Shown: positions 50,676-57,978 of the stretch, piece after piece | How the letters are laid out: every line of letters starts with the position of its first letter | Position numbering within the stretch: position 1 is the stretch's first letter | From: Micromonospora nigra | GTDB taxonomy: Bacteria > Actinomycetota > Actinomycetes > Mycobacteriales > Micromonosporaceae | Reading direction: 5' to 3' | DNA length: 64,000 nucleotides | Assembly: GCF_900091585.1 (NCBI RefSeq) | Contig: NZ_FMHT01000003.1 | Location: 6,040,001 to 6,104,000, forward strand | The notes under the pieces: generated by a model | What the model saw: the letters and a program-made list of their open reading frames with translations, nothing else | Database searches by the model: none | What the model was told of the DNA's origin: nothing | Program-made: the position numbers and the translations under genes

Positions 50676-51359
50676 TCAGGGTTCGCGGGCGCGGAGGTAG
50701 GCGTCCAGGTCAGCGGCACCCTTGAGCATGGCGCGGCCCCGGGCGGACAGGCGGGCCTGCCAGTCGCGCAGGGTCGACTCCAGCGGGGCGACGCCTCCAG
50801 CGGAGCGGACCTGCGTGATCAGCGGGGCGATCTGCTCCACCAGGTGGCCGCCACGCCTGAGCTGGTGGACCAGCTGGGCGTCACGTACGTCAGCCGCGCC
50901 GTATATCCGATATCCGGTCAGCGGATCGCGGCGCGGCCGGACCAGCCCGGCGTTCTCCCATTTGCGCAGGGTGGCCGGGCGGAGGCCGAGCCGTCTGGCC
51001 AGGGGACCGATGAAGGTGTCGCCGCGTTCCTGCGGCACGGGCGCAAGATCGCGGAGCGCGGCTTCGACGGTCTGGAGGGTTCGACGGTCGTCGAGGAGTT
51101 GGCCGTGGCTCTCGTCGATGAGCCGCAACGCGTCTTCGGTCGCGTCCCGGTTGACCGCCTGCATGATCAGAGTGGCCGTCTGGTGACCATGCCCGGACGC
51201 GAGGGAGAGGAACGCGCGTAGGGCGCACGCGTGCAGCGGGGTGTAGGTGCGGTAGCCGTGCACGGTGCGTTCGGCGGCGGGCAGGATGCCGACGCCCTCG
51301 TAGTTCCTGATCGCCTGGGTTGACAGGCCGTGCTCGCGCGCCAGGTCAACGGGCCTCAT
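50676..51359 (-). CDS. MerR-type regulator with two HTH domains (TioE-like)
   Basis: 227-residue regulator with two MerR-type HTH modules. First: MRPVDLAREHGLSTQAIRNY, EGVGILPAAERT, YRTYTPLHA. Second, near residues 115-155: IGPLARRLGLRPATLRKWEN, LVRPRRDPLTGYRIY. This tandem layout matches the TioE-type regulators linked to thiocoraline-type resistance. Diverges from the erythromycin-esterase-family gene, whose promoter carries a long palindrome. Confidence 0.85.
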   Translation of the reverse strand: MRPVDLAREHGLSTQAIRNYEGVGILPAAERTVHGYRTYTPLHACALRAFLSLASGHGHQTATLIMQAVNRDATEDALRLIDESHGQLLDDRRTLQTVEAALRDLAPVPQERGDTFIGPLARRLGLRPATLRKWENAGLVRPRRDPLTGYRIYGAADVRDAQLVHQLRRGGHLVEQIAPLITQVRSAGGVAPLESTLRDWQARLSARGRAMLKGAADLDAYLRAREP

Positions 51360-51365
51360 GGTTGC

Positions 51366-51380
51366 TTCACCAGTTGAAGG
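51366..51380. promoter_or_regulatory. Inverted repeat before the double-MerR gene
   Basis: CTTCACCAGTTGAAG, an approximate palindrome (CTTCA-N5-TGAAG) six bases before the regulator ATG; possible autoregulatory site. Confidence 0.4.
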
Positions 51381-51415
51381 TCTATCGCCCCAGGAGCGGG
51401 ATTTCGCTGAAAAGT

Positions 51416-51445
51416 TTACACCGTGGGTTCAACGATACGGTTTAA
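51416..51445. promoter_or_regulatory. Operator of the esterase gene
   Basis: TTACACCGT-N12-ACGGTTTAA, arms matching at 8 of 9 positions. The right arm contains the -10 TACGGT (51436-51441), 7 nt before the esterase ATG. Long spacing suits a regulator with two HTH units per chain. Confidence 0.7.
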
Positions 51446-51448
51446 GGC

Positions 51449-52615
51449 ATGGGTATCAACGACGCGGCCCGGCCGCTCGACGGTGCGGTCGTCTCGGGGT
51501 TTCTCCGGTCGCTTCCCGCCAAGCCACTGCTGCTCGGTCTGGGCGAGGCCAGGCACTTCGTGGAGGAGTTGGGGGAGCAGCGCAACGAGATCTTCCGGCA
51601 TCTGGTCGAGCATGAGGGCTACCGGTCGTTCGCCATCGAGAGCGACTGCCTCAGGGGACTCGTGGTCGACGACTACGTCACGACAGGCATTGGCGATCTC
51701 GACGACGTCATGGATCGTGGCTTCAGCCACGGCTTCGGCGCGTCACCGGCCAACCGGGAGCTGGTGCGCTGGATGCGCGCGTACAACGAGGGGCACGACG
51801 AGAAGCTCCGGTTCCACGGCTTCGACGGGCCGTTGGAGTACTGGGCCGCGAGCCCCCGCCAAGCGCTCACCGGCCTCCACGGCCTCCTCGACGGCCCGCT
51901 CCCGTGCGCGATGGAAACCCTGGACACGCTGCTCGGCCCCGACGACCGGTGGACGAACGAAGCCACCGTCATGGACCCGTCGCAATCGGTCGGCCGGTCC
52001 GCCGACGCCCAGCGGTTGCGGCTGCTCGCCGACGATCTGGTGGCGCTGCTCGACACGCAGGCGCCGCGGCTGAGCGCGGAGGCCAGAGAGAGGGCGGCGC
52101 TGTACGGGCGTACCGCCGTCGGCCTGCTCCGTTACCACCACTGGATGGCCGACACGTCGCCGACCCGGATAGCCAGACTGTCGGGCCTGCGGGACGCCAT
52201 GATGGCCGCCAACCTGCGCGCCGTCGCCGAGAACGGCCCGGCCCTGGTCTTCGGCCACAACCTCCATCTGCAACGGAGCAAGAGCTTCATGCCGCTCGGC
52301 GACCAGCAGTTGGAGTGGTGGAGCGCGGCGGCCATCGCCGAAACGCACCTGGGCGACCGGTACGCCTTCCTGGCCTCAGCCCTCGGCACGGTGGGCGACG
52401 ACGCCCCGCCCTCGGACACCGTCGAGGGCCTGCTGTCCACGCTTCCGTGGGACCGTTCCCTCATCGACGCCCGCCGTCTGGCCGCGACCATCACGAAGCC
52501 CGCCCCGCGCATCTCCCACGATGTCGCCTACTTCCCGTTGGACCCGGCTCACCTCGACATGATCGACGGCGTCGTCTTCCTCAAGGAGGCTGTCAGGCTG
52601 GGTCGATTCGGGTGA
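51449..52615 (+). CDS. Erythromycin-esterase-family protein
   Basis: 388-residue member of the EreA/EreB-like family. LLLGLGEARHFVEELGEQRN carries the GEA-x-H motif with the proposed catalytic His and Glu; FAIESDCLRGLVVDDYV, VRWMRAYNEG and VFGHNLHLQRS follow the order of the family. Ere enzymes open macrolide lactone rings, but many relatives act on other substrates. Tandem regulator plus operator suggest drug-induced expression. A Tn3-family element is inserted 38 bases past its stop. Confidence 0.85.
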   Translation: MGINDAARPLDGAVVSGFLRSLPAKPLLLGLGEARHFVEELGEQRNEIFRHLVEHEGYRSFAIESDCLRGLVVDDYVTTGIGDLDDVMDRGFSHGFGASPANRELVRWMRAYNEGHDEKLRFHGFDGPLEYWAASPRQALTGLHGLLDGPLPCAMETLDTLLGPDDRWTNEATVMDPSQSVGRSADAQRLRLLADDLVALLDTQAPRLSAEARERAALYGRTAVGLLRYHHWMADTSPTRIARLSGLRDAMMAANLRAVAENGPALVFGHNLHLQRSKSFMPLGDQQLEWWSAAAIAETHLGDRYAFLASALGTVGDDAPPSDTVEGLLSTLPWDRSLIDARRLAATITKPAPRISHDVAYFPLDPAHLDMIDGVVFLKEAVRLGRFG

Positions 52616-52653
52616 CCGGCCACGGGGTCGAGGAAGAGCGGTACGGCGGTTAC

Positions 52654-52699
52654 GGCTCTTGAGGACCAACGCTCGGAGAAGTCCCGTTAGGCAGGATCA
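52654..52699 (+). repeat. Left terminal inverted repeat
   Basis: 46 bases beginning GGCTCTTGAGGACC; matches the right end at 43 of 46 positions (differences at 4, 12 and 41). Preceded by GTTAC. Confidence 0.93.
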
Positions 52700-52743
52700 A
52701 CTTCTCTGGTGGTCTGGAGTGGTGCCGCGTACGGTGATCGCTC

Positions 52744-53133
52744 ATGTCATCGACGGTGAGCTTCTTGTCGCAGGCGGAGATGGATGGGTTCGGCCGGTAT
52801 GCCGAGACGCCGCCGAACCGCGAAGCGCTGGAGCGGGTCTTCTTCCTCGATGACGCGGATCGTGAGCTGGTCGCGGAGTATCTTGGGGCGCACTCGCGAC
52901 TGGGTTTCGCCCTGCAGTTGGTGACGGTTCGGCAGGTGGGCCGGTTTCTGCCGGATCCGTTGGATGTGCCGTCGGCGGTGGTGGACTACGTGGCGGTCCA
53001 GCTGCAGATCGAAGATCCGTCGTGTGTGAAGCGATACCTGGAGCGGCGTAACACCCGGTATGAGCATCAAGCGGCGCGTCCGGTGGTGTGGTGGTCGTGG
53101 CCGCGATCTCCTCTGTCGTGGGCCTTCGGGTGA
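52744..53133 (+). pseudogene. tnpA: Truncated Tn3-family transposase (DUF4158 N-terminus)
   Basis: Residues 1-108 follow the DUF4158 head of Tn3-type transposases: FGRYAETPPNREALERVFFL, DDADRELVAEYLGAHSRLG, FALQLVTVRQVGRFLPDPLD, and RRNTRYEHQ. A normal TnpA is about 1000 residues; homology stops at about 53,067 and the last 20 residues are antisense of the neighbouring hydrolase. No DDE catalytic part remains in the window. Confidence 0.9.
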
Positions 53134-53733
53134 ACACGCCGCCGCCGTCGCTGAGAAAGCTTCGTGCACCGACCGCGCGTACGAGCTCGGGATCAGCGCC
53201 GGCGTTGAGCCAGTCGGTGGGTGCGTCGGCCGCCTGTTTCTCGATCCAGGCGTCACGTTGTGCGGCATCGAAACGGCGTCCGTACCCGAACGTACGCCGC
53301 AGTTCCTCGGCGGCCTGCGGGGTGCGGAATTGCCCGAAAGTACGGGAGACGGTCTGCCGGTCATCAAGGACCAGCCCGTCGACGATGCAGATCCCGCTGG
53401 GCTCGACGAGGCCTGCGGCAGTTACCGCGGTGACGGCGTAGCCGCCGGTGGAGTGGCCGACCAACAGCGGGCTTTCCCAACCCGAGGGGTAACGACAACG
53501 GCCAGATCGCGCCAGTACTGTTCGGCGGTTCTCGACTCGGCGGTGCTGTGGCCGTGGCCGCGCAGGTCGACGGCGATCACCCGATGTCGCGGCAGAAGGC
53601 CCGCCACTACCGCTTCCCACGCGGCGGCGTTGTGCCCGCTGCCGTGCACGAGAAGCACGGGATACCCGGTGCCGCCGTGATCCAGGGCGGTCACCGTGCC
53701 GCCGTCGACCTCGAAAAAGATCTCTTTACTCAC
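53066..53733 (-). pseudogene. Alpha/beta hydrolase, frameshifted and 3'-truncated
   Basis: GTG 53733 overlaps the vgb stop. The N part reads EVDGGTVTALDHGGTGYPVL and LLVHGSGHNAAAW, the C part GWESPLLVGHSTGGYAVTAV with the nucleophile elbow GHSTGG. These lie in different frames: continuity needs one extra base near 53,490 (in a CCCC run). The 3' end is lost at the junction with the transposase stub (about 53,067). Without the frameshift it would be co-expressed with vgb. A sequencing error in the C run could mimic the first lesion but not the truncation. Confidence 0.82.
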
Positions 53734-54650
53734 GTATTCCAGCCTTTCTTGACCGCATTCAGGGAACCGGTCTCCATCACCACCCACACCAGGCCGTCCT
53801 CGATCCATAACCCGTGCGGCTCTCGCCCAGGCAATTGGTGAAGGGTCACGTCGCCGTCGGCGGCGATCTGGGCCAGCTGGGCAGAGCCCCACAGCGTGAC
53901 CCAGCATCCGCCATCGGTGTCGGCCGCTACGGCGTGTGGCCGGCATGCGGCGTCGGTGAAGCTGATCTTCTCTACCGAGCCGGACGGATCGACACGACCA
54001 ACGCAGCCGCCGGCGATGTCCGCGTACCAGATCCCCGCTGGGGAGGCGGCGATGCCGACCGGCGCGGCAGGCGCCCTGCCAGCGGGTAGTTCGACAATCC
54101 GTACCGCACCGTCGTTCACGTAAGCGAGGGCACTGGCGGCGTTGAGCGCAACCCACGGTCGGCCTGCACCATCGACGGTGAGCATCGCCGCCCGAGCCTC
54201 GGGAACCGGCAGGTCGAGCATGGTCAAGTCCCCCGATGCGGTAACTATCCTGCCAATCTGGTTGAGGCCCGGTGCGGTAAACCAAACTCCACCGTCAGGC
54301 GCAGCGGCGATGCCGTAAGGCGCTGATCCGGGTGCCAGGTCGATCACCGTGTGGTCGCCGGAGGCGTCTCGTCGGCTCAGCCGATCGTCGGTACGGGTGC
54401 ACCAGAGCGCGCCGTCAGAGGCGACGGCCAGCAGCATCGGATGACCGTCACTGCGAGGAAGGCACTCGTGCCGGAACGAGGAACCTGCCTCACCGCCGAC
54501 CGGAGTTTCGGCAGGCGTGAACCGTGCGAGTCCCGGCGGAGTCAGAACCGTCATCCACAAAGTCCCGGCGGTGTCCCCGGTCACGGCGTACGGTGTCCAA
54601 CCCGACGGCAGGACTACCTCACGACACAGTGTTGTCTCAAGTGGTGGCAT
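53730..54650 (-). CDS. vgb: Virginiamycin B lyase (Vgb)-like protein
   Basis: 306-residue seven-bladed propeller. Repeated blade motifs are PYAVTGDTAGTLWMT, PYGIAAAPDGGVWFT, PVGIAASPAGIWYA, PHAVAADTDGGCWVT and PHGLWIEDGLVWVV. The residues known to be catalytic in staphylococcal Vgb fall at H239 (CRPHA), E277 and H279 (REPHG), with similar spacing. Such enzymes linearise streptogramin B antibiotics. ATG 54650 has GGAGGG before it. No signal peptide. Appears intact. Operator-controlled by the divergent TetR protein. Confidence 0.87.
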   Translation of the reverse strand: MPPLETTLCREVVLPSGWTPYAVTGDTAGTLWMTVLTPPGLARFTPAETPVGGEAGSSFRHECLPRSDGHPMLLAVASDGALWCTRTDDRLSRRDASGDHTVIDLAPGSAPYGIAAAPDGGVWFTAPGLNQIGRIVTASGDLTMLDLPVPEARAAMLTVDGAGRPWVALNAASALAYVNDGAVRIVELPAGRAPAAPVGIAASPAGIWYADIAGGCVGRVDPSGSVEKISFTDAACRPHAVAADTDGGCWVTLWGSAQLAQIAADGDVTLHQLPGREPHGLWIEDGLVWVVMETGSLNAVKKGWNT

Positions 54651-54659
54651 CAGCCCTCC

Positions 54660-54678
54660 ATCCGTAAACGCTACGGAT
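54660..54678. promoter_or_regulatory. TetR operator in the transposon
   Basis: ATCCGTA-AACGC-TACGGAT, a perfect 7-bp inverted repeat between vgb and tetR, directly before the tetR -10 (TAGCAT, 54680-54685). Confidence 0.8.
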
Positions 54679-54692
54679 GTAGCATTAGGCAC

Positions 54693-55301
54693 ATGACGTC
54701 AGATGCGCAAGTCCCTTCCGTCTTCTCCGGGAAATCCCGGCCCGGCGGCCGAACCGCCCGCACCCGCGAACGCGTACTCGACGCCGTCGCGTCACTACTC
54801 CTGGAAGGCGGCTACGACGCCGTGACCATGGACGCCGTCGCAGCACGCTCGGGAGTCCATCGCACCACCGTCTACCGCCGCTGGCGCGACACCGGCGGCC
54901 TGCTCGCCGACTCCCTCGACGCCGCCCGCGAACACCCATGGGAACCGCCGGACACCGGCTCACTACTGGACGACCTGCTCGCCATCAACCGCCAGATCGT
55001 CGCCGCCCTGACGCAAGAACCATCAATCACCCGGGCACTCGTCGCCGCGTCGTTCCGCTCCCCGGCCGCCGCCCACGCGCTCCGCTCATTCTGGGAGAAC
55101 CGCTACGCCCACGCTGCCGTCGCCGTCCAACGAGCAGTCCGCCGAGGCGAGGCCATGAAAGACATCGACGCACGAACCGTACTGATCGCTTCCAGCGCAC
55201 CGATCTTCTACGAACTGGTGCTCATGCGATCCCCGATGCCAGAAGACATCGCCGAACGCTATGCCCGAGCAGGCGCCGCAGTCGCGGCCGGCCGGCCCTG
55301 A
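54693..55301 (+). CDS. TetR-family regulator of the transposon cargo
   Basis: 202-residue regulator. HTH: RTRERVLDAVASLLLEGGYD, then MDAVAARSGVHRTTVYRRW. C domain with a TetR_C-like helical bundle. ATG 54693 lies 7 nt after TAGCAT, so probably leaderless. It faces vgb across a perfect operator, so it likely represses vgb and itself until a streptogramin-like inducer binds. Confidence 0.9.
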   Translation: MTSDAQVPSVFSGKSRPGGRTARTRERVLDAVASLLLEGGYDAVTMDAVAARSGVHRTTVYRRWRDTGGLLADSLDAAREHPWEPPDTGSLLDDLLAINRQIVAALTQEPSITRALVAASFRSPAAAHALRSFWENRYAHAAVAVQRAVRRGEAMKDIDARTVLIASSAPIFYELVLMRSPMPEDIAERYARAGAAVAAGRP

Positions 55302-55411
55302 CCCCATCACCAAACCGGGCTGCGCCGGCAAGACACCTCTACACACTCCGGTCGGCGATGTCGCGTACTTCCCCCGCTGAAGCTACCCTCCGCCGCCGGA
55401 GGCACCCGGAT

Positions 55412-56023
55412 TCATGGGGACGCAGCATCGAGGGCGCGGCTGAGCGTCCAACGGGAGACCCGTAGTTTTGCGGCGACGGCGGTCCGAGTTTGCCCGGCAC
55501 CAAGCAAGATCCGGGCATCGGCGATCTGCTCGGGTGTCAGCGCGCGCGGACGGCCGCCAACCCGGCCTCGGGCGCGGGCGGCGTCGAGGCCTTCGCGGGT
55601 GCCCTTGACGATCTGCTGACGCTGAAACTTCGCGATGGCAGCGAACACGGTGAAGATCAGCTCGCCGCACATGTCGTCGCTGGTGTCGAGCACGATGCCG
55701 TCGAGCGTGCGGAAGTGGCGGCCGTCAGCGTGCAGGTCGTCTTCGACGATGGCGAGCAGTTCACGGGTGTCGCGGCCGAGCCGGGTCAGGTCGAGAACGA
55801 CAAGGGGGTCACCGCGGCGCACGTGGTCAAGGGCTGCGGCCGGGCCGGGTCGGCTGGTGCCCTTCTTGCCTGAAGCCTTATCGAGATAGACCCGGGCGCA
55901 ACCGACGGCTTTGAGGGCGTCGATCTGGCGAGCCAATTCCTGGGCGTCGGTGGACACCCGGGCCAGCCCGACTAGATCCTCACGGGAGCTCGGGTCATCG
56001 TTGAGGATCACAAGATCCTTCAC
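55412..56023 (-). CDS. tnpR: Serine resolvase of the Tn3-family element
   Basis: 203-residue site-specific recombinase. The catalytic domain has LVGLARVSTDAQELARQIDAL (nucleophile Ser), VYLDKASGKKG, VVLDLTRLGRDTRELL and FQRQQIVKGTREGLDAARARG; the C-terminal HTH is PEQIADARILLGAGQTRTAV then LRVSRWTLSRAL. GTG 56023 with GGAGGG just upstream is preferred over a start ten codons earlier. It resolves cointegrates at the adjacent res site. Intact. Confidence 0.92.
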   Translation of the reverse strand: MKDLVILNDDPSSREDLVGLARVSTDAQELARQIDALKAVGCARVYLDKASGKKGTSRPGPAAALDHVRRGDPLVVLDLTRLGRDTRELLAIVEDDLHADGRHFRTLDGIVLDTSDDMCGELIFTVFAAIAKFQRQQIVKGTREGLDAARARGRVGGRPRALTPEQIADARILLGAGQTRTAVAAKLRVSRWTLSRALDAASP

Positions 56024-56053
56024 AGCGCCCTCCAGTGAATGAGATTCCCCCAC

Positions 56054-56150
56054 CGTAGCGAGAACGGCAGTTTCGAGTCTTCTGCTACACGCCGGTTTTG
56101 CTACATAGTTTCGCTACCGGTTTCGAGGGCAGATTGCCGCCGGCGAAGAC
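56054..56150. other. Candidate res recombination site
   Basis: A stretch directly upstream of the resolvase with recurring short motifs: GTAGCGAGAACGG, GTTTCGAG (about 56070 and again near 56119), and GCTAC three times (about 56083-56116) in alternating surroundings. This density and place fit a three-subsite res region; exact subsites not defined. Confidence 0.55.
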
Positions 56151-56219
56151 GTTGGCGGGCGTGGAGCAGAAACGATCGTTATTGCCCCACGTCGCACCGC
56201 GACGCCCGCCCACCAAAGA

Positions 56220-56265
56220 TGATCTTGCCTAACGGGACTTCTCCGAGCGTTGGCCCTCAAGGGCC
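56220..56265 (-). repeat. Right terminal inverted repeat
   Basis: Reverse complement starts GGCCCTTGAGGGCC; pairs with the left end at 43 of 46 positions. Followed by GTTAC. Confidence 0.93.
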
Positions 56266-56274
56266 GTTACGTAG

Positions 56275-57084
56275 CTAGGAGATCGCCCGATACTGGAAGC
56301 CATGGAGCGTTGCCGTGGCGCGCTCGGCTGGCTTGTCGTCCGGCGAAGAGACGAGGATTGCGAGCACGTCCCCTGAGCCGTAGTCATCGTCCACCGTGAG
56401 CGTGATCACCTGATTACTGTCGAAGGTGAATACGGTCACTGTGAGCTTTTGTTCCTCCACGCGGACGGTGATCTGCGCCCGCGTGAACGTGCGGGTGGGT
56501 TTGCCAGCTGTCACGGTCGCTCGGGGTTCGAGCCGAAGGATTTGGACACCACCCGAGGCGCACGCCGACACGCCGTACTTGTCGCGCATCAGAATGCCGA
56601 TACATGACGTGGGACCTAGAGCGTCGGCGTGGAGGGTGATCTCGTACGCGGGCGGAAAGGCCCGACCGGGCCAGTCGAACGAGACGCTGGCGTCCTGGTA
56701 GAGCGCCCGCTGACCGGTACAGGTGACCTTGCCCTCCAGGAGGGTCCAGCGTGCCCCACCCTTGTCGCATTCCGCACCAGGCGCATCGGCCTGGTAGAGC
56801 TCCGGCAAGGTGGGCCTGGTTGCCAAGTGTGTTGACAGGCGGCCAACGAGCCCCTGTGACACCTCGAATGTGCGCCAGAGCAGTCCTCCGCACAGGCCCA
56901 GCACGATCAGAAGAAGAAGTGTCAGCACGGCACCCCGCACCGGTGGATGATGATGCGTCTCGATGCTGACGATGCCGCTGATGGCAATGCCGTCGTGATC
57001 GGCGGTCGCGTTGCCAGAGTCAGTCACGGTGTTCTGGGCCCGTCCGGCACCGGCGTGCGGAACGGAGGTCTCGCCGGGCGTCAC
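56275..57084 (-). CDS. Single-span membrane protein with SGNATA-type motif
   Basis: 269-residue protein of unknown family. The cytoplasmic N terminus holds the motif DSGNATADHDGIAISG (residues 22-37), a membrane span at 51-70 (AVLTLLLLIVLGLCGG), and a predicted extracytoplasmic beta-rich domain to 269 with SCIGILMRDKYGVSACASGG. The start GTG overlaps the stop of the next gene upstream. The Tn3 target duplication ends four bases past its stop, so the coding sequence is intact. Confidence 0.7.
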   Translation of the reverse strand: MTPGETSVPHAGAGRAQNTVTDSGNATADHDGIAISGIVSIETHHHPPVRGAVLTLLLLIVLGLCGGLLWRTFEVSQGLVGRLSTHLATRPTLPELYQADAPGAECDKGGARWTLLEGKVTCTGQRALYQDASVSFDWPGRAFPPAYEITLHADALGPTSCIGILMRDKYGVSACASGGVQILRLEPRATVTAGKPTRTFTRAQITVRVEEQKLTVTVFTFDSNQVITLTVDDDYGSGDVLAILVSSPDDKPAERATATLHGFQYRAIS

Positions 57085-57507: not shown

Positions 57508-57811
57508 TCAGTCTTTGGATACGCACCACTCATGGTGGTGGCGCAGTAACCCGACCTCGGTGGCGGCGTCGGCGACGGGCGGAAGGGCCTCGTAGCCGCG
57601 CACGAGCCGCCGGTGCTGCATCAGCCAGCCGAAGGTTGGTTCCACGACCCACCGGCGGGGGCTGAACCTGGAGGCTCCTCCCGGCGAGCAGGTGCCGGCT
57701 GTCGACGGAGTCCTGCACCGACGCAACCCCCACCCGCGCCGCTCGCCACGCGGTCAGCACCGGCTCGATCAACGTCCACCGCTCATCCGCCGGATCCGAC
57801 CGATACCACGC
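57508..57811 (-). pseudogene. IS5-type transposase remnant
   Basis: The N-terminal piece WYRSDPADERWTLIEPVL (from about 57,811) and the C-terminal piece PRRWVVEPTFGWLMQHRRLV are IS5-family transposase sequences in different frames with the middle missing. Clearly inactive. No terminal repeats could be defined. The flanking gap 57,812-58,074 holds an inverted repeat but no gene. Confidence 0.85.
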
Positions 57812-57978
57812 CGCTTCACACCCATGCGTGCTCAACGAACCGGAGCGGGGGGCGTCACGGCTGGCGCAGCCACCCAAGCGCGAAGCGTCGACTTCACCGC
57901 CGCGTCAGCGGGCAATTATCGAATTACGTTGACCGGCAATCCGAAAATCAGGCGGGAGGAATCGGGCATAACGTCTGC

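Follow-up and report, generated by a model that had tools for sequence, protein, structure and literature searches.

A non-autonomous Tn3-family transposon of Micromonospora nigra carrying a gene of the Vgb streptogramin lyase family beside a tetR gene

A 64,000 bp stretch of the Micromonospora nigra genome (assembly GCF_900091585.1, contig NZ_FMHT01000003.1, positions 6,040,001 to 6,104,000; hereafter the window) contains a 3612 bp transposon of the Tn3 family at window positions 52654-56265. Micromonospora is a soil genus known for antibiotic producers, and we think it likely that this element is a stranded, non-autonomous Tn3-family transposon of the Micromonosporaceae that carries an inducible streptogramin B lyase module. 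From left to right it contains a stub of the transposase gene tnpA, an alpha/beta hydrolase gene broken over two frames, vgb, a divergently transcribed tetR and an inward-facing resolvase gene tnpR; three of these genes are open (Table 1).

Table 1. Features of the M. nigra transposon in window coordinates
Feature	Position	Strand	Evidence or remark
Left target duplication copy, GTTAC	52649-52653	.	Sequence
IRL, 46 bp left terminal inverted repeat	52654-52699	+	43/46 to IRR; 44/46 to right end of the G295 element
tnpA stub, first ~110 codons of a Tn3-family transposase	52744-53071	+	DUF4158, 100.8 bits
Alpha/beta-hydrolase pseudogene, 3' end cut by tnpA stub	53090-53733	-	Pfam match in two pieces
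vgb-like gene, streptogramin B lyase family, 306 aa	53730-54650	-	PF24684 Vgb_lyase, 205.8 bits
Candidate TetR operator, CTAC-N4-GTAG	54671-54682	.	Between the divergent starts of vgb and tetR
TetR-family regulator, divergent from vgb	54693-55301	+	TetR_N, 40.5 bits; TetR_C_11, 88.2 bits
tnpR, serine resolvase, open frame, 213 aa	55412-56053	-	Resolvase, 119.7 bits; HTH_7, 31.6 bits
res region	56055-56191	.	Dyads and repeats; sub-site assignment is our own
res candidate site III	~56055-56088	.	GTAGC...GCTAC dyad
res candidate site II	~56092-56121	.	GTAGC-type repeats
res candidate site I	56160-56191	.	32 bp dyad
IRR, 46 bp right terminal inverted repeat	56220-56265	-	43/46 to IRL
Right target duplication copy, GTTAC	56266-56270	.	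Sequence

Ends, transposase stub and resolution system

Terminal inverted repeats of Tn3-family elements are about 38-48 bp long and the elements generate 5 bp target duplications; the M. nigra element has 46 bp repeats with GTTAC abutting each of them. Elsewhere in the window the next best match to IRL is 26/46, and a search of the 6.36 Mb host genome with a 28-base repeat core (<=3 mismatches) finds only IRL and IRR, with no third site. The G+C content of the element is 66.4%, compared with ~72% in the 5 kb flanks, and G+C at third codon positions (GC3) is 0.73-0.77 for vgb, tetR and tnpR and 0.79 for the tnpA stub, compared with 0.905 and 0.863 for two genes of the left flank. The cargo thus appears foreign to this locus, because both the element as a whole and the GC3 of vgb, tetR and tnpR deviate from the flanks.

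A full Tn3-family tnpA encodes about 1000 residues with a DDE domain, and since the M. nigra element retains just ~110 N-terminal codons we class it as a non-autonomous derivative. The stub is 87% identical in DNA sequence to tnpA of M. gifhornensis over 330 bases, with the homology ending at nucleotide 331 of the latter. In the host genome the stub alone matches at 1e-10, and no full-length relative of the transposase was found at that threshold.

For the resolution system we used as a yardstick the division into three resolvase types (TnpR, TnpI and TnpS+T) and the three-site res layout (PMC7157771 and PMC13367494, both in excerpt). The dyad at candidate site I has a score of 11.2, which was equalled and never exceeded in 100 mononucleotide shuffles (mean 3.9). 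Such a score is by itself good and not overwhelming, and on sequence grounds the stronger argument for res is the conservation of this dyad in two related elements, at locus L009 of genome G185 and locus L011 of a Pseudonocardiales metagenome-assembled genome (MAG, G013). A serine resolvase and a putative cognate res, the Tn3-family combination, are both present.

The hydrolase is split over two minus-strand frames (53482-53733 and 53090-53479), each 53% identical to consecutive parts of a single 302-aa Streptomyces clavifer protein, and it lacks more than 80 C-terminal residues of this homologue, the loss falling at the junction with the tnpA stub. The frame break may be a sequencing error; the truncation holds in either case. 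Two records in the plasmid collection match the hydrolase at 53-54%, one of them beside a vgb gene. We considered the hydrolase as a passenger common to the lineage and rejected this, as its C-terminal piece is found in none of 159 other genomes of the genus at 1e-15.

A prior sequence-only reading of this DNA had described the 46 bp repeats, matching at 43 positions and flanked by GTTAC, together with a tnpA stub, an intact resolvase with res-like sequence and a non-autonomous Tn3 derivative, and in these points it is borne out, the last of them by paired ends in other genomes and by a host containing the stub alone. It had also listed a vgb/hydrolase/TetR cargo, in which vgb and tetR stand and the hydrolase proves not to be an open gene.

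Related elements and their cargo

The 28-base core occurs (<=3 mismatches) in five of 397 genomes of the order, where this and all later genome counts for ends, Vgb and flanks include the window genome unless other genomes are specified. At the same tolerance 11 of 160 genomes of the genus have the first 37 bases of the end, three of them as a pair (M. nigra, G295 and G420, which is M. gifhornensis) and eight as a single copy. Among the 84,980 genomes of the genome_contigs collection a 22-base end pattern with two degenerate positions is matched exactly at six places, in a search that may leave out records near the window's own; two are in M. gifhornensis and the others are in Micromonospora sp. 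KC606, M. qiuiae, Actinoplanes xinjiangensis and the Pseudonocardiales MAG. In our searches the end sequence is found only in the Micromonosporaceae and this one MAG, and phages and viral contigs gave no match. An end in G461 was excluded from the lineage; it adjoins, on its outer side, a resolvase that is just 50% identical.

The sequence-only reading had proposed a search for the repeats and for full-length relatives with a complete tnpA; paired ends are present in two other genomes, one of which has an open full-length tnpA. In G295 the ends lie 5.8 kb from each other and are flanked on both sides by GGTTC, and the tnpA copy there contains one internal TAG. In M. gifhornensis (NZ_BOPA01000047.1) the ends span 5779 bp and enclose an open 1017-aa transposase (DDE_Tnp_Tn3, PF01526, 376 bits; NCBIfam transpos_Tn3, 750.9 against a cut-off of 500) as well as small open reading frames (ORFs) and a tyrosine recombinase. 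The right ends of both elements have repeated palindromes beside the tyrosine recombinase gene, in place of which the right ends in M. nigra, G185 and the MAG have res and tnpR. We note that the small ORFs are a pair (193 and 156 aa; L008 5803-7011 and joined L016/L012 6891-8099) lying between tnpA and the recombinase in both of these tyrosine-recombinase elements, where their copies are 92-94% identical; a 156-aa copy (91%) is also present in G408, locus L082. A second full-length Tn3 transposase, 73% identical to that of M. gifhornensis, is encoded in M. qiuiae (locus L087, G446 C62:17924-20956), on the same contig as the TetR/MFS element described below and with more distant ends (30-31 of 46).

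The M. nigra tnpR is 82-87% identical to the resolvases that adjoin these ends in G185 and the MAG (87% for the MAG copy), and a search across the family at 1e-75 finds it in three of 354 genomes, those of M. nigra, G185 and G438; M. qiuiae has a 43-residue C-terminal tnpR remnant. We found five copies with tnpR or a remnant of it, four of which adjoin a regulator/resistance-type pair, of three kinds. The first is the TetR/vgb pair of M. nigra. The second, in G185 and M. qiuiae (G446, NZ_BOPC01000062.1), is a TetR regulator (TetR_N, 48.9 bits) with a DHA2 EmrB-type exporter of the major facilitator superfamily (MFS; TIGR00711, 300.5 bits, cut-off 230.2), and over these two genes the genomes agree at 97% identity. 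The third, in the MAG, is a MerR regulator with an erythromycin-esterase/DUF6194 protein; it lies between tnpR and the C-terminus of tnpA, whose last ~131 residues (92% identical to M. gifhornensis) follow the cargo and point back towards it.

The block common to G185 and G446 spans 4.4 kb in the former and 3.6 kb in the latter, its main piece being 96.5% identical over 3446 bases. It ends at the outer base of the repeat, beyond which the flanks differ, and this supports the right boundary of the element. Within a few bases of its left edge M. qiuiae has a 61 bp piece of tnpA (85% identical to nucleotides 542-602 of the G295 gene). We rejected the possibility that TetR/MFS of G185 is an ordinary resident neighbour, since G181 matches that block alone (81%) and shows no similarity around it in the regions compared, and the G185/G446 similarity also stops at the repeat.

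In all four cargo copies tnpA is broken or, in G185, not found (no match at 1e-10 in the whole genome), and in the other three the gene is interrupted after codon ~110, at ~201 and before ~885, respectively. On comparison of the copies, the order tnpA, cargo, inward tnpR, res and right end is shared. The 'cargo slot' itself is a pattern to test, with few copies (four, of which two share one cargo).

The vgb-tetR module

The Vgb match to PF24684 is well above its gathering score of 50 bits. An AlphaFold model (predicted local distance difference test score, pLDDT, 89.5; 11 rows) was compared with known structures by Foldseek, giving query template modelling (TM) scores of 0.86-0.89 to the streptogramin lyase structures 2qc5, 2z2n, 2z2o and 2z2p, compared with <=0.63 for the remaining propellers among the 50 matches listed. 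Residues Y21, H239, E277, H279 and E293 are invariant across 17 aligned sequences. H279 aligns with VgbA H270, whose H270A mutant the title of 2z2p calls inactive; E277 and E293 align with what we take to be VgbA E268 and E284, a numbering that agrees with the printed positions. The residue that is presumably VgbA D53 is not kept in all relatives.

Both the TetR_N helix-turn-helix and the C-terminal ligand domain of the regulator score above cut-off, and the protein is 58.8% and 57.5% identical to the TetR proteins beside ABC-F and vgb genes in two Streptomyces plasmids. The candidate operator occurs once in the window, and once each in the 14 kb relatives L033 and L034, at the same place, even where tetR has been lost.

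We examined ten plasmid contexts of Vgb relatives that are 34-39% identical, nine of them annotated. An ABC-F gene adjoins vgb in three of the nine (ribo_prot_ABC_F 406, 377.5 and 381.5 bits, cut-off 380), with the same type of TetR divergently upstream in two of these, and a Vat-like acetyltransferase does so in two (best NCBIfam match Vat_ABCDEFH, 221 and 227 of 300 bits); a hydrolase adjoins vgb in one. Vat-like or ABC-F partners are thus present in 5/9. A vgb gene of S. coelicolor also belongs to the WblC antibiotic-response regulon (PMC7157823, in excerpt).

From family, fold, catalytic residues, the divergent TetR and the Streptomyces plasmid neighbourhoods we infer inducible resistance, and the Vgb-like protein probably destroys streptogramin antibiotics. 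TetR probably binds CTAC-N4-GTAG between the divergent starts and silences vgb until a drug-like ligand releases it and vgb is switched on, after which the lyase would linearise cyclic depsipeptides of the streptogramin B type. The working cargo would then be the two-gene vgb/tetR module, with the downstream hydrolase dead.

Several observations weigh against our overall reading, and the first three given here would fit an alternative that we regard as rather unlikely, in which the Tn3-family remnant stands but its Vgb-like protein, though controlled by TetR, is no resistance enzyme and has another substrate (a different cyclic peptide, a lactone or a signal). Vgb scores 107.1 and 102.6 bits against the NCBIfam VgbA and VgbB exception models, which have a cut-off of 600; by sequence it is neither the VgbA nor the VgbB enzyme, and because these cut-offs are missed we keep the name to 'Vgb family'. 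At 1e-20 Vgb matches 107 of 160 genomes of the genus, among which only M. nigra itself, G378 (85%) and G399 (81%) have close versions; the rest are 37-47% identical, so that relatives of this kind exist in most of the genus and the family may also do ordinary work. CylK resembles Vgb structurally and catalyses a different reaction, with hydrophobic residues where Vgb has its active site (PMC8916777, in excerpt). Three of the nine annotated plasmid contexts have no ABC-F, Vat-like or hydrolase partner, and the candidate operator, known from three loci, is absent from both Streptomyces loci scanned (L058 and L059). Against this alternative stand the gap in Foldseek scores between streptogramin lyases and other propellers, the five invariant residues with H279 at the position of VgbA H270, and the Vat-like or ABC-F partners on plasmids, and on balance the structural, residue and plasmid evidence favours a streptogramin role. 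We note separately that the window genome (G000), G378 and G399 each have a single Vgb-family match at 1e-20 and so seem, in these small numbers, to be without the 37-47% relative common in the genus.

Origin of the element and comparison with known systems

Other observations of this sort bear on the transposon history. The ends in M. gifhornensis have no matching 5 bp duplication, being flanked by GCAGC and CTGGT; G185 shows only one end, with no second in 27 kb; and in G438 the gene after a broken tnpR is of the pyridoxamine-oxidase type (PNPOx_N, 38.6 bits) and not a resistance gene. No empty site was found: the left flank, an erythromycin-esterase-like gene, has counterparts in 46 of 160 genomes of the genus, the longest homology ending at window position 52628, and the right flank matches two of the 160 (M. 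nigra and G403), from position 56275, with no other genome matching both flanks. This last point, and the single ends in 8/11 of the genus genomes that have one, would suit a history without transposition, in which a resident vgb-tetR pair is bracketed by chance by two solo ends or a nested remnant. We consider such a history very improbable, given that GTTAC matches at the exact expected bases, that the ends are inverted and are the sole pair in the genome, that GC3 of vgb, tetR and tnpR is deviant, and that vgb-tetR or vgb occurs in other surroundings in G378 and G399.

In G378 the vgb-tetR unit recurs at 87% identity, the homology corresponding to window positions 53743-55304 and to just these two genes, and stops ~27 bp from a decayed end of the same family in outward orientation (34/46, where the best of 40 Markov-1 resamples of the locus is 27). 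There is no second end in positions 575000-612000 of that contig, the best other match being 26/46. In G399 the similarity extends over vgb, the intergenic DNA and the opening bases of tetR, and the 14 kb scanned there yielded no end. The earlier proposal that the element spread this unit therefore finds partial support: the unit does recur beside an end in G378, but only one end is there, and G399 has vgb without any.

The least probable alternative is that the element is still active in this host, as a miniature-type element (TIME) that moves in trans: both ends are present, tnpR is open and composites carrying resistance genes have been described (PMC13367494, in excerpt), but the element is a single copy in a genome without a full-length transposase relative at 1e-10, and its 3612 bp lie far outside the 50-500 bp given for miniature inverted-repeat transposable elements (MITEs) in the same source.

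Under our preferred reading of a stranded, non-autonomous transposon, the element would have come in through replicative transposition of the Tn3 kind, the cointegrate then being resolved at res by the resolvase. With tnpA broken, any movement at present would have to be in trans, through a related transposase of the M. gifhornensis type acting on the ends of the element. It would belong to a small lineage whose members carry, between tnpA and tnpR, different regulator/resistance-type pairs in different species. Much more tentatively, and with less than even confidence in the whole, we suggest that antibiotic-producing actinomycetes exchange complete, self-regulated resistance modules (a regulator with an enzyme or pump) on a Tn3 lineage of the Micromonosporaceae, with a different module per lineage in this slot (TetR/vgb, TetR/EmrB-MFS or MerR/Ere-like), and that repeated uptake of cargo cost these carriers tnpA and left them living off autonomous tyrosine-recombinase relatives with common ends.

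Among the neighbouring genes, a divergent pair at 50676-52615, to the left of the element, encodes a double helix-turn-helix MerR-like regulator and an erythromycin-esterase-family protein, the latter gene stopping 38 bp short of the left repeat. The cargo of the MAG element (L011) is a distant version of this pair (50% and 38%), and a homologue (82%) of the MerR-like gene lies at 6759-7493 of L009 in G185, ~1 kb beyond the right repeat of the element with TetR/MFS, at which locus no esterase gene was detected. About 1.2 kb to the right of the element (57508-57877) there are overlapping minus-strand frames that by eye resemble pieces of an insertion-sequence transposase.

A putative streptogramin-type inactivation module between true transposon ends represents an intermediate, seldom seen as a rule, on the way from the resistomes of producers to mobile resistance, and the lineage provides a natural comparison, in which the same ends go with two systems of resolution and regulated cargo of three kinds. 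Its import is limited by the rarity of the element and by the age of the theme, Tn3 elements with resistance cargo being long known; the cargo pattern of the lineage may be the newer part. The sequence-only reading knew of no described element with this set of features, and among the matches listed in the open-access literature, which was the scope of the search (subscription papers lay outside it), we likewise found no account of the lineage, nor of any actinobacterial Tn3 element with a Vgb-family gene.

The M. nigra element shares with Tn3/Tn21-type transposons having TnpR/res the terminal repeats, the 5 bp duplication, Tn3-type tnpA sequence and a serine resolvase with a dyad-rich res region, but differs in its broken tnpA, in a tnpR that lies opposite tnpA and is transcribed inward, in having cargo between the two and in its own 46 bp end sequence. 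The M. gifhornensis and G295 relatives, which have the same ends, resemble Tn4430/Tn5401-type elements in their tyrosine recombinase and repeated palindromes and may belong to that subgroup, whereas the M. nigra element has a serine resolvase instead. Like TIME-type elements it is non-autonomous and would depend on tnpA in trans, and TIME composites may carry resistance genes; unlike them it is far longer, retains tnpR and is not a composite of two miniature elements. Streptomyces linear plasmids carry TetR/ABC-F/vgb and LysR/Vat-like/vgb groups, four of which have a divergent regulator by vgb as in M. nigra, with TetR proteins 57-59% identical to that of the window; the transposon, in contrast, has no ABC-F or Vat-like gene and its Vgb is only 34-39% identical to theirs. 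Staphylococcal VgbA and VgbB are alike to the M. nigra Vgb in fold and in the catalytic motif EPHG...E, with only 24-26% identity in structural alignments and NCBIfam scores far under the cut-offs, and unlike them the M. nigra protein belongs to an actinobacterial branch and is encoded beside a TetR regulator.

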